The notes under the pieces: model-generated
The model's database searches: none
What the model was told of the DNA's origin: nothing
What the model saw: the letters and a program-made list of their open reading frames with translations, nothing else
Made by a program: the position numbers and the translations under genes
Shown here: piece after piece, positions 3,201 to 51,200 of the stretch
How the letters are laid out: each line of letters begins with the position of its first letter
Position numbering within the stretch: the first letter of the stretch is position 1
Source: Stramonita haemastoma
Taxonomy: Eukaryota > Mollusca > Gastropoda > Neogastropoda > Muricidae
DNA: 64,000 bases
Assembly: GCA_030674155.1 (NCBI GenBank)
Contig: CM060337.1
Coordinates: 42,868,215 to 42,932,214 of the forward strand
Direction: 5' to 3'

Positions 3201-6200
3201 TGTTTGTATATCATTGTCAGTAATGGGCAGAGTTTTCTGCTTGAAATTTGGGCTGTTTTCCCACGGGGAGAGCATGTCACCGCAAGAGCAGCAGCATCTT
3301 TTTTGTTTTTTTTTTTTTTGGGGGGGGGGGGGGGGGGGGGGGTGCTCGTTTGTCCTGTCTACAAATGTATGTTTTCTGTTAAAGACTCTACAGAATTTTG
3401 CCAAGGACAGTTCTCTGCTGTGGGTTTCTTTTATTTGCAATAAATACTTGTTGTACACAAGACCTCTATTTATCACATCTTCCAAAAGACTTGCACCCAG
3501 ACCACCTACTCTTATTCTGGCGGATGGGGAGGGAAGTGTGCTTGGAAAGGTACATTTATTCATTTATTCTTTTATATCGAGGATAATGGAATAAGCAACC
3601 ATGTGCTTTTTTCCCCTTTGGTATGCAGTTTTGTAAATCTTGTCCTCTGTTCCCACCGGCACACAATGACCTACTCTCACGAAAAGCGGAACAGGATTTA
3701 ACGTGAGTGCAAGATGTTCTGCGTGCATTCGCACACGTGATCTCAGTTTACATTCTCATCCGAAAGACTTTTGGGGAGAGTGGAGTCAGCACTGATGTTA
3801 ACTCCAGGGGAAAAATCCCCTCGACTGGGAATCAAACTTGGGTTGTCAAATTGCGAGCGCAATGTTCTGACCACTAGGCTATCCCGTCCCCTGGTACAGC
3901 TGGATTGACAGAGTGCGTGTGTATGTGTGTGTGCATGAAGGATGGAGGCAGGATGGTTAAGATGTTCACCTGCCAACAAGTAAACCGTGAGTTTCTGAGT
4001 TCGTACCCAGCCTCACCCTTTCTTTCCAGTTAACGAAAAAATCAAACTGAGTGTCAAAGTCATTTGGATGAGACTATAAACCGATGCCCCGTGTGTGAAC
4101 GCACGCAGAGCATCTTGCACACACGTTAAAACCCTGTTCCGCCTTTCGGAAGAGCAGGCCATCGTGTGCCAGTAAAAACGGATAACAAAATTATTTTTAA
4201 AAAACCAGCATGCACGCAGGTGTCGTGTTTAGACATCATCCCTGAGAAAAAGAAGAAAAAAAAATGCGTAGGCGCTGCACATGTGGCGATGCGCTCTCCC
4301 TGGGGAGAGCAGCCCGAATTTCATGCAGAGAAATCTGCTGTGACATAAAGTGGTATAAAATAAAATAAAAATTAATTAAAATAAAAAATTGTTTCAGGAG
4401 GCGGTCACTCTGCTGTCCAGTTTCTCCCTGCGAGGATCGTCCAGCACCATCGAGCAGGTGTTGAAAACGCTGGCCATTCTGACTCGTGTGGACAACCACA
4501 ACTTCGATGGCCACTTTCCTGTGATGTAAGTCACTGGATAGGTATTACACTGTTGTTGTTCTGATGTAAATCACTGGAAAGATTTTGTCACTGGATAGAT
4601 GTTACAATGTTGTTGTGAGGTAAGTCACTGGATAAATGTTAAGTCAGTGGGTAGATGTTCAGTCACTGGATAGATGTTCAGTCACTGGATAGATGTTCAG
4701 TCATTGGATAGATGTTCAGTCACTGGATAGATGTTCAGTCACTGGATAGATGTTCAGTCACTGGATAGATGTAGAGTCACTGGATAGATGTTTAAGTCAC
4801 TGAATAGATGTTAAGTCACTGAATAGATGTTCAGTCACTGAATAGATGTTCAGTCACTGAATAGATGTTCAGTCACTGGATAGATGTTAAGTCACTGGAT
4901 AGATGTTCAGTCACTGGATAGATGTTCAGTCACTGGATAGATGTTCAGTCACTGGATAGATGTTCAGTCACTGGATAGATGTTCAGTCACTGGATAGATG
5001 TTACAATGTTGTTGTGATAAGTCACTGGGTAGACATTACAATATTCTTTTTTTTTTTTTTTTTATACTCTTTGAAGTAGTTGTGATCAACATATTGGCAT
5101 GATACTGATAGCTATCAGACAATTTATTATTTCAGCTAGCATAGCAACTTTTTCTCTGATTGAGTTAGCTGGGTTTATGATTGTTTTTCCTCACCCTCAC
5201 CTTGTAGTGGGGGGGGGGGGGGAGTATAATTAGTTTAGTTTGTCTCCATTTTATGATTACTTTCCATAAGGAATCAGCATAATAAGAAACAAGCGTCGAA
5301 AAGTTGAAGGAAAATATCTTAAATGGTAAAGAATTGAATCAAATCCAGAATCCTGTCAGGTTTACATGTGCATGAAATTGATATGAAAAAAAATCCTTTG
5401 TATTTCCGTGGCTTTAAGTTATTTTCTGCAGTTTAAGTACTCCATTGTTGTTGTTTTCTGAAGAGAGTCTCCTCATTTTCAGTGTCTGTGTTTGGTATGT
5501 GCAGAGACTCAGCAAGGAGACCGGGACAGGGATTGGGAATCGCTGCCCTGGCATTCAAAGTAAGTCGTTGAACAGCTTTTGGAATTGATTCGAGCCACCA
5601 CCAAGATGCCTGTTTGAAGAGATTTCCCCTAGAGTTAACATCAGTGCCAACTACACTCTCTAGAAGTCCTTCAGATGAGACTATAAACTGAGGATTCTTC
5701 ATACATTCACACAGAACATTGTGTCCACATGTTAAAACCATTTACACCTTCCAGAAGATCAGGCCTTTGAGTGCTAGTAAGAATGGATGACAACATTTTT
5801 TTTTAAATGCATCCGCAGTTTTGGGGGATGGTGAGGGGAGTAGCCTAGAGTTCAGAACTTTGCAATCATGTTTTAACAGCCCTGGATTGAGCTTGGCTTC
5901 GAGCCACCACCAAGACACCTGTTCAAGGTTTTTCCCTTGGAGTCAACATCAATACTGAAACCACTTTCCAGAAAGTTCTTCAGATGAGACTTTAAACTGA
6001 AGCCCTGTGTGCAAATCCATGCAGAACATTTTGTGCACATGTTAAAACCTGTTACACCTTTTGGGAGAGTTGGCCATTGCATACCAGGAGGAATGGATGG
6101 CAAAATTTTAAGACACGTGCACACTGGTGTTGTCTTTAAAAAACATCCCCGAAATTGGAATGCGGCTACCTTATTGGTAGGCAAACCATGGGGTACGCAA

Positions 6201-48200: not shown

Positions 48201-51200
48201 CTAAACCCGACTATGACGTGGAAGACATACAACATACTAAACCCTGATGATGACATTGAAGACATAGGACCATACTAAACCCTGATGATGACATTGAAGA
48301 CATGACCATACCATACTAAACCCTGATGATGACATTGAAGACATGGACCATACATACTAAACCTGATGATGACATTGAAGACATGGACCATACCATACTA
48401 AACCCTGATGATGACATTGAAGACATGGACCATACCATACTAAACCCTGATGATGACATTGAAGACATGGACCATACCATACTAAACCCTGATGATGACA
48501 TTGAAGACATGGACCATACCATACTAAACCCTGATGATGACATTGAAGACATGGACCATACCATACTAAACCCTGATGATGACATTGAAGACATGGACCA
48601 TACCATACTAAACCCTGATGATGACATTGAAGACATGGACCATACCATACTAAACCCTGATGATAACACATTGAGACATGGACCATACATACTAAACCTG
48701 ATGATGAACATGAAGGATGGGAATATACTAAACCCTGATGATGACACATTGAAGAATGGACCATACTAAACCCTGATGATGACACATGAAGGATTGGATT
48801 ATACTAAACCCTGATGATGACACATTGAAGATGGACCATTACTAAACCCTCATGATGACACTAAGGATGGGATATACTAAACCCTGATGATAACACATTG
48901 AAGGATGGCATACTAAAACTCTGATGATGACACATGAAGGATGTGGGATTATACTAAACCCTGATGATGACACATTGAAGACATACTAAACCCTCATGAT
49001 GACACATGAAGGATGTGGATTATACTAAACCCTGATGATGACACATTGAAGACATACTAAACCGTGATGATGACACACTAAGGATGTGGATTATACTAAA
49101 CCCTGATGATGACACATTGAAGACATACTAAACCCTCATGATGACACATGAGGGATGTGGGTTAACTAAACCCTCATGATGACACATTGAAGACATACTA
49201 AACCCTCATGATGACACACTAAGGATGTGGATTATACTAAACCCTGATGATGACACATTGAAGACATACTAAACCCTCATGATGACACATGAGGGATGTG
49301 GGTTAAACTAAACCCTGATGATGACACATTGAAGACATACTAAAGCCTCATGATGACACACTAAGGATGTGGATTATACTAAACTGTGATGATGACACAT
49401 TGAAGACATACTAAACCCTGACGATGTCATGGAAGACATACAACATACTAAACCCTCATGATGACACACTAAGGATGTGGATTATACTAAACCTTGATGA
49501 TGATATTAAAGACATGGAACATACCAAACTAAACCGTGACAATGATCAGCTATGTTTCATTCAGCGGTGGATGTGACGGGGGAAGAGGAGAGAGACGTGA
49601 ACATGATCTTCATGGAAATGCCGGGGGCACAGGGGTGAGTTGTTACAGCTGTTATCTGTAGTTGTTACAGCAGTTATCTATCTATCTACACATGTTTTAA
49701 TGTCTGTTATCTATCTATCTATCTACCTACACATCTTTAAATGTCTGTTGTTACAGGGGTTATCTATCTACACATCTGTTAATGTCTGAGTTAATACAGC
49801 TGTTATCTATCTATCTATCTACACATCTTGTTATGTCTGAGTTGTTACAGCTGTTATTGATCTATGCATCTTTTTATGTTGGTGTGTGTGAGTGTTTGTT
49901 TGGTGTGTGTGTGTGTGTGTGTGTGTGTGTGTGTGTGTGTGTGTGTGTGTGTGTGTGTGTGTGTGTGTGTGTGTGAGTGCCTGAGTAGTGTGTGTAGTTT
50001 TTGTTGGTGATGGTCGTTGCAGTCGAAGTGTGTGTGTTGTTGATTGTGGTGGTGGTGGTCTGTTTTTCATTGTGTCACCATGTGCTTGTTTTTGATTGTG
50101 TTAATTTACATACTTGTTTTGGAGGGGGAATGGGATAGCCTAGTATTGGGCTTGCAGTGTAACAGCTTGCTGACCTTACTGCTTAGTGTCATTGTCTCAT
50201 GGCCCAGGAACAACTTTTGGTTCAAGACAGTACTTTGTGTGTGTGTTGCAGGCAAGTCAAGCCCAGGGAGTGGAGAGTGAAAGTGAAGGTAAGAAGAAAG
50301 AAAGAAAGAGAGATCAGAAGACAGACAGACAGACAGAAAGAAAGAAAGAAAGAAAGAAAGAGAGAACAGAAGACAGACAGACAGAACAGAAAGAAAGAAG
50401 AAAGAAAGAAAGAAAGAAAGAAAGAAAGAGAGAAAGAAGACAGACAGACAGAAAGAAAGAAAGAAGAAGAAAGAAAGAAAGAAAGAAGAAAGAGAGAACA
50501 GAAGACAGACAGACAGACAGAAAGAAGATAGACAGAAAGAAAGATAGAATGAAAGATAGAAAGACAGACAGAATTGAATTGAATTGAATTAAGAGGGTCA
50601 CAGCATAAGCAGACATGCTTTTTTACAACCAGCCCTCAGAAAGAAAGATAGAAAAACAAAGAAAAACAAAAAGAAAAAGGCTGACAATTGGGTTGGAAAA
50701 AAGAGCATGACACAAAAAAGCCACTTTGACTGCAGTTGTTGTTTTTCCAAAGGGGAGTATGTGTGTGTGTGTATGTAAATTCGGTTTTGATTTTGTTGGG
50801 GGTTTTTTGTTGTTTTTTTCACTTGGGACTCCTCATTCCTCCACTCTGCTGCAGACACCCTGTAATTACAAATACCTAGATTCAACCAATCCACTGTTGG
50901 CCGTCGCTCTTTTTCTATTTCTGGTCCATCAATCTGGAATGACCTCCCCCTCTCCTTTCGTGAAAAGCCTACCTATGACACTTTTAATCCAGCCTCATTT
51001 CAAACGTAAAATTTCCCCCTCCTGTTTCATCTCATATCTGTCCCTGCCTTCAGTGGCTGAAACCACCATCATCCTGCCAAAGTGTACAGCCTTTGTGTGT
51101 GGGTGTGTTTACATTTGAATTTGTTAAAACTGTTAATTGCTATTGGTTGTATGTGTAAGAATAGGTTGGATGCAAGCATTTTGATTTGCTTTGACAAGAT

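Follow-up and report, generated by a model that had tools for sequence, protein, structure and literature searches.

The window analysed here is a 64,000-nucleotide stretch of the Stramonita haemastoma genome (C22:42868215-42932214; the genome assembly measures 2.17 Gb in 9373 contigs). It holds the gene NCAPD3, whose introns contain tandem arrays that at several junctions copy the edge of the neighbouring exon together with its splice site. A sequence-only reading of the window had proposed that such arrays are repeatedly seeded on the exon-intron junctions of this one gene. About one in eight of the splice sites sampled, in NCAPD3 and in kinesin genes of the same genome, lies within a local tandem array in which the exon edge is copied as well. 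The rate at which these edges are copied is close to that expected from the very dense tandem repeats of this genome, so that a special mechanism directed at exon edges is not clearly indicated.

The translated exons match Condensin-2 subunit D3 (PDB 9f5w_D) with an E-value of 6.9e-154, and also contain the Pfam Cnd1 domain. Given the Condensin-2 match, the gene is identified as NCAPD3, which bears out the name it had been given from the letters alone. The exon set comprises 31 exons with 62 junctions in positions 4398-50288, defined on the basis of coding score, splice score, phase and homology; the NCAPD3 exons and arrays described below lie on the + strand. Most exons were taken from a computed exon chain, some of whose edges were reset by hand, and the exons starting at 24220, 33850 and 40645 were supplemented via homology or reading. 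Weak members of the chain were omitted (e.g., 42209-42411), and the placements at 15041, 28120 and 43680 are of lower certainty. Exon 33850..33919, which is followed by a CT-rich array at 33948, was recovered by homology and is absent from the sequence-only reading. In 38685-40644, an interval of which arrays make up much, the conserved segment of about 20 residues expected from human NCAPD3 between exons 38514-38684 and 40645-40680 did not turn up; loss, decay or misassembly each could explain why it is missing. By phase reading against the conserved protein, exon 41807-41931 seems to be out of frame by one base close to its start, perhaps through a consensus error.

Exon-edge copies were identified with a junction word of 24 bases (12 of exon and 12 of intron), a copy being a match with at most five edits, in direct orientation, within up to 3 kb of the adjoining intron. 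Eight of the 62 NCAPD3 junctions present such a copy, namely donors 4525, 19573, 24296 and 40680, and acceptors 16466, 31477, 33283 and 35043. When each junction is instead paired with the intron of another junction (the swapped-intron control), 0.6 of 62 do. The best copies have no edits at 16466 and 19573, one at 40680, and three at 24296 and 33283, while those at 4525, 31477 and 35043 sit at the five-edit limit. In terms of gapless matching on the exon side, the copies extend over 0 bases at 24296, 3 at 35043, 6 at 4525 and 9 at 31477.

Among the donors, exon 4398..4525, placed by coding and splice scores with its donor at 4525/4526, is followed in 4526..5002 by the intron start and a 19-bp minisatellite of unit AGTCACTGGATAGATGTTC, with a weak copy of the donor region near 4619 (5 edits). 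The end of exon 19460..19573 is copied twice downstream, with 0 and 1 edits, and a CTGT array in 19574..19968 is interspersed with copies of the exon end and donor. After the hand-placed exon 24220..24296 and its donor, a 61-bp repeat (24297..24495) presents two copies of the donor region with three edits each. The hand-placed exon 40645..40680 has 36 bases and encodes 11 residues; direct reading places a degenerate copy of it upstream, at 40531..40570. In the TCCT-rich array downstream of the exon (40681..41434), exon and donor are copied with 1 edit inside a 122-bp duplication, and no AG directly precedes this copy.

Among the acceptors, the region 15712..16482 contains a 24/48-bp array and then a duplication of 59 bp across the acceptor of exon 16466..16599 (placed by homology and the exon chain), with 0 edits and a 17-base match on the exon side. 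A 49-bp array at 31174..31372 holds degenerate copies of the acceptor of exon 31477..31585 (5 edits), and a 67-bp array at 32774..33149 holds copies of that of exon 33283..33387, the best with 3 edits. The 31-bp minisatellite at 34127..35045 runs into the acceptor of exon 35043..35127, and only the acceptor AG and 3 exon bases are common to both.

Of the nine strong cases of an array on an exon edge that had been listed from the sequence, eight yield a junction-word copy: the four acceptors, two of them at the edit limit, and four of the five donors, including that of the exon at 40.6 kb (40680). The remaining donor, 38684, does not, its best match over +-12 bases having 6 edits. The units of the array of about 117 bp (38685..39708) that follows exon 38514..38684 share only about 7 exon bases in addition to the donor region, and the stretch from -8 to +22 has four copies at 5 edits. 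Five weaker cases, at 31586, 36300, 46900, 49635 and 50289, present no exon-edge copy at five edits or fewer. By eye, the repeats at 31586 and 49635 resemble the intron start only, the array at 36300 stops 12 bases short of the exon and that at 46900 stops 3 bases short, and the AAGA repeat at 50289 begins 5 bases past the exon end.

As a comparison set, kinesin motor exons were collected by a genome search with Pfam PF00225, which yielded 125 matches. Part of these was fetched, as 20 stretches of 10 kb and 9 shorter ones, and exon edges were set by profile match and splice score, read by eye. The sample covers one genome and two gene sets. The first 20 loci present 66 exon matches; L014 (4 matches) was dropped as a near-copy of L022, and of the 124 edges of the remaining 62 matches, 101 were placed and used and 23 were dropped as uncertain. 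In the second batch, 25 of the 28 edges of seven loci were used, and L032 and L036 (8 edges, 1 with a copy at five edits or fewer) were dropped as near-copies of L023 and L026.

Exon-edge copies at five edits or fewer are present at 17 of the 126 kinesin junctions, compared with 8 of 62 in NCAPD3, so the view of NCAPD3 as a special gene does not hold. Pooled, this amounts to 25 of 188 junctions, or 13 of 188 at two edits or fewer. All 25 are direct and no junction has an inverted copy (0/188), and the swapped-intron control yields means of 1.4 of 188 at five edits or fewer and 0.2 at two or fewer. Tandem repeats cover 34% of 4398-50288, against a mean of 20% (range 2-41%) over 22 other loci, these being the ones among the 29 fetched with fewer than 500 N. 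NCAPD3 is therefore rich in arrays, yet within the range found elsewhere.

In the raw counts, the share of random NCAPD3 intron points that fall within an array (41%) is far above that of junctions. This comparison is misleading in both directions, given that an array has many copies whereas a junction can be hit only once, and each intron point was weighted by 1/copy number (the once-per-array count). On this count, 10.0% of NCAPD3 intron points are copied, which yields 6.2 of 62 junctions expected, with 8 seen. Over the 188 junctions, the profile of raw rates at two edits or fewer rises from exon to intron and presents no peak at the junction, with 0 of 188 at -60, 4 at -30, 13 at the junction and 22 at +20, followed by 43 of 187 at +100, 30 of 184 at +300 and 25 of 134 at +900. 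The L023 donor is placed 19 bases off in this profile and in the whole-locus, ratio, masking, copy-alignment and rank analyses, while the totals at two and five edits are unaffected. Counted once per array at five edits or fewer, the rate is 13.3% at junctions versus 11.7% at points 36-240 bases into the intron, a ratio of 1.13 with a bootstrap interval of 0.78-1.51; for NCAPD3 alone, the values are 12.9% and 12.3%.

These results are best explained, with good though not overwhelming probability, by indiscriminate small tandem duplication in a repeat-rich genome, in which events that overlap an exon edge are tolerated. Small tandem duplications, with units of about 20-150 bases, would be frequent, would later expand into arrays, and would land across introns irrespective of splice sites. 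Those overlapping an exon edge would survive, since their extra copies end up in the intron, and correct joining of the exons, with the right protein, would still be given by the exon-proximal site. Tolerance would thus follow from the extra copies being on the intron side with the exon-proximal site still usable, and such events would make introns longer and leave exon-edge copies with GT or AG. The conserved protein points to the use of the exon-proximal site. The neutrality of these duplications is presumed, and so is the nature of the duplication step, taken to be slippage or short-homology repair.

Two clean duplications bear on that step. In kinesin L009, the duplicated unit is 85 bases long and takes in 47 bases of exon plus the donor, and its matches sum to 88; at 16466 in the window, the unit has 59 bases and the matches sum to 65. 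In these two cases, the surplus of 3-6 bases suggests duplication through short breakpoint homologies. The arrays at L029 and L037 are not seen at the corresponding junctions of their paralogs (L018 and L027), L027 presenting only a 6-edit match 1.9 kb off, and L026 has an exon-edge copy that is not in the 300 bases examined of its near-copy L036, while L023 and L032 share a junction copy. This suggests that some of the tandem duplications are younger than the gene duplication, though the other gene copy may instead have lost the repeat. In L026 (about 7022-7190) and L036 (about 5500), CTCCG/ATATCCTTT seems to mark the end of a kinesin exon, and L026 has a second copy of this edge and site; we take the site to resemble a U12-type AT-AC donor.

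What survives of the idea drawn from the sequence is that arrays are mildly more common close to exons (within about 250 bases) than in deeper intron, 1.4-1.7 fold. Counted once per array, points 36-240 bases into the intron are copied at 1.5-1.7 times the rate of those at least 300 bases in, with all eight intervals above 1. When dispersed repeats are masked, with a partial mask built by comparing loci that covers 21% of the window, the near/deep medians are 1.4-1.55, with three of four intervals above 1 and one including 1. The excess is weak in NCAPD3 alone (0.082 vs 0.077 at two edits or fewer, and 0.123 vs 0.089 at five or fewer). It holds for spans of at least 1 kb, and is not significant in the 54 junctions with spans of at least 2 kb. 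The sequence-only reading had staked its proposal on arrays being closer to exon edges, and more often containing exon-edge copies, than intron length and array density predict: the exon-edge copies are not clearly above what density predicts, whereas the arrays lie mildly nearer to exons than would be expected from deep intron. A tentative possibility, which we consider doubtful, is that small tandem duplications form by preference close to exons (within about 250 bases), splice sites included, perhaps via transcription, splicing or exon-specific chromatin. Introns would then grow from their edges, and intact spare splice sites would be seeded at about one in eight junctions. Such a near-exon excess, if true genome-wide, would link tandem duplication to gene structure.

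Somewhat less likely is anchoring on the junctions themselves, in which a splice-site feature (CAG/GT short homology, transcription-linked breaks, or the composition step between exon and intron) would start duplications and drive intron growth. Several results favour it or weigh against indiscriminate duplication. Without simple sequence, 5.0 NCAPD3 junctions are expected versus 8 seen; at 6 edits, 12 are seen versus 6.8-7.9 expected, with the swapped control there at 2.3. In 19 kinesin loci, 13 of 101 junctions are seen versus 6.4-7.1 expected from whole-locus points, or 4.4-5.0 without simple sequence, an excess of about twofold or more. Excluding simple-sequence windows, the junction/near ratio is 1.3-1.5, and one of four intervals excludes 1 (1.49 at five edits or fewer, with a bootstrap by junction of 1.10-1.95). 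Moreover, the exon end GGCCAAGACAG/GTGAGG carries different arrays in two paralogs, of 88-base units at L009 5208 and of 61-base units at L023 3586, and is possibly a recurrent duplication site.

Against such anchoring stand the profile, with no peak at the junction, and the 8 NCAPD3 junctions seen for 6.2 expected. In the setting with the ratio of 1.49, the interval becomes 0.94-2.02 when resampled by locus and 0.88-1.70 when masked, both of which include 1. With dispersed repeats masked, the junction/near medians range over 0.85-1.28 and 1 lies inside each of the four intervals, as it does in all four when resampled by locus; overall, 15 of 16 settings include 1 and one does not. Position-matched points account for much of the kinesin whole-locus excess, which may be ascribed to the general near-exon excess together with slower decay of the exon half. 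Part of any remaining junction excess would likewise be expected, given that selection holds the exon half while both intron copies decay. Junction anchoring was hence rejected as the main cause, given the lack of a peak and a junction/near ratio not clearly above 1. Regarding intron growth by duplication, the arrays do lengthen introns, as their cover indicates, but the anchoring of that growth on junctions is not borne out.

The arrays also appear to leave decoy-like copies that resemble splice sites, a suggestion of the sequence-only reading that stands at sequence level. Of 75 copies, 74 have an intact GT or AG, and in 22 of 23 families every edited copy does, whereas a central base pair is kept in 162 of 224 control windows (p 0.02 in a rank test on the first 19 families). 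That these copied sites are maintained by selection, e.g., for alternative splicing or regulation, is nonetheless very unlikely. The value of 74 of 75 is inflated, because the five-edit filter selects for intact centres in copies whose homology stops within the exon half. When the filter is lifted in the 31-bp array 34127-35045, 24 of 27 or 22 of 26 units keep the AG, depending on which of two patterns is used, and the others have TG, GG or CG. The distance of a copy from its junction is a multiple of 3 in just 20 of 75 copies. Strong selection on the copied sites was rejected on these three grounds, i.e., the units without AG, the filter bias and the distances.

That the long-read assembly inflated or misplaced the arrays is even less probable. 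The frame problem of the 41807 exon and the segment missing between 38684 and 40645 hint at an imperfect consensus, but the copies are diverged and unit lengths vary between junctions. The junction copy shared by near-copies L023 and L032, which lie 0.9 Mb apart on one contig, also argues against it, though the pair is possibly an assembly duplicate. Least credible is that the introns themselves were born by tandem duplication of AGGT-bearing coding segments, the arrays being the remains: introns do contain exon-derived sequence, and intron L009 4270-4974 tops the end-likeness test with a sum of 7, but the likeness predicted in register (intron start to next exon start, and intron end to previous exon end) reaches a score of at least 8 in 0 of 71 introns (null mean 0.04) and a score of at least 6 in 2 of 71 versus 0.8 expected, for which reason this origin was rejected. 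The 71 introns are those with both ends placed; some of the 41 kinesin introns among them may hide exons, and 3 come from near-copies.

Other features were observed in the window. A 261-residue open reading frame with an RNase H domain lies at 26165-26947, within an NCAPD3 intron, and probably derives from a retrotransposon. The sequence around 47045-47250, read directly, is presumably akin to a tRNA-derived short interspersed nuclear element. On the - strand, a 275-residue open reading frame at 61319-62143 contains a PARP catalytic domain (Pfam PF00644, E-value 1e-16).

High array density can by itself produce striking arrays at exon edges, and a once-per-array control is needed in their assessment. 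This genome also provides many natural settings for testing how splicing passes over near-perfect splice-site copies a few dozen bases from the real site. A narrow literature search turned up no molluscan genome for which arrays of this kind are reported to be so frequent. Human introns have reportedly been traced to tandem arrays, in what is said to be a claim of intron origin by Zhuo et al. in PNAS in 2007. The present case is similar in that tandem arrays are tied to introns; here, the arrays are found only in existing ones.

As in the class of repeats that span exon-intron boundaries, the copies described here are direct and local and hold both the exon and the intron edge (25/188, with inverted copies at 0/188), and their presence differs between gene copies (L029/L018, L037/L027 and L026/L036). 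According to De Grassi and Ciccarelli 2009 (PMC2812944), tandem repeats from minisatellite expansion in human segmental duplications can likewise sit at exon-intron boundaries, where they generate novel introns and alternative splicing. The human repeats described there vary in nearly identical exons of recent paralogs, whereas those studied here are in existing introns of conserved genes, at about one in eight sampled junctions. In potato (PMC4974935), a duplication across an intron-exon boundary, which also copied splice signals, created a new intron, while the 71 introns studied here present no sign of creation by the AGGT route. In Drosophila, PMC2891723 relates tandem duplication of coding segments with proto-splice sites to novel intron positions; small regional tandem duplication alters gene structure in both cases, but here the introns grow in place. 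The exon-edge repeats of S. haemastoma are a frequent instance of an already known type of event.

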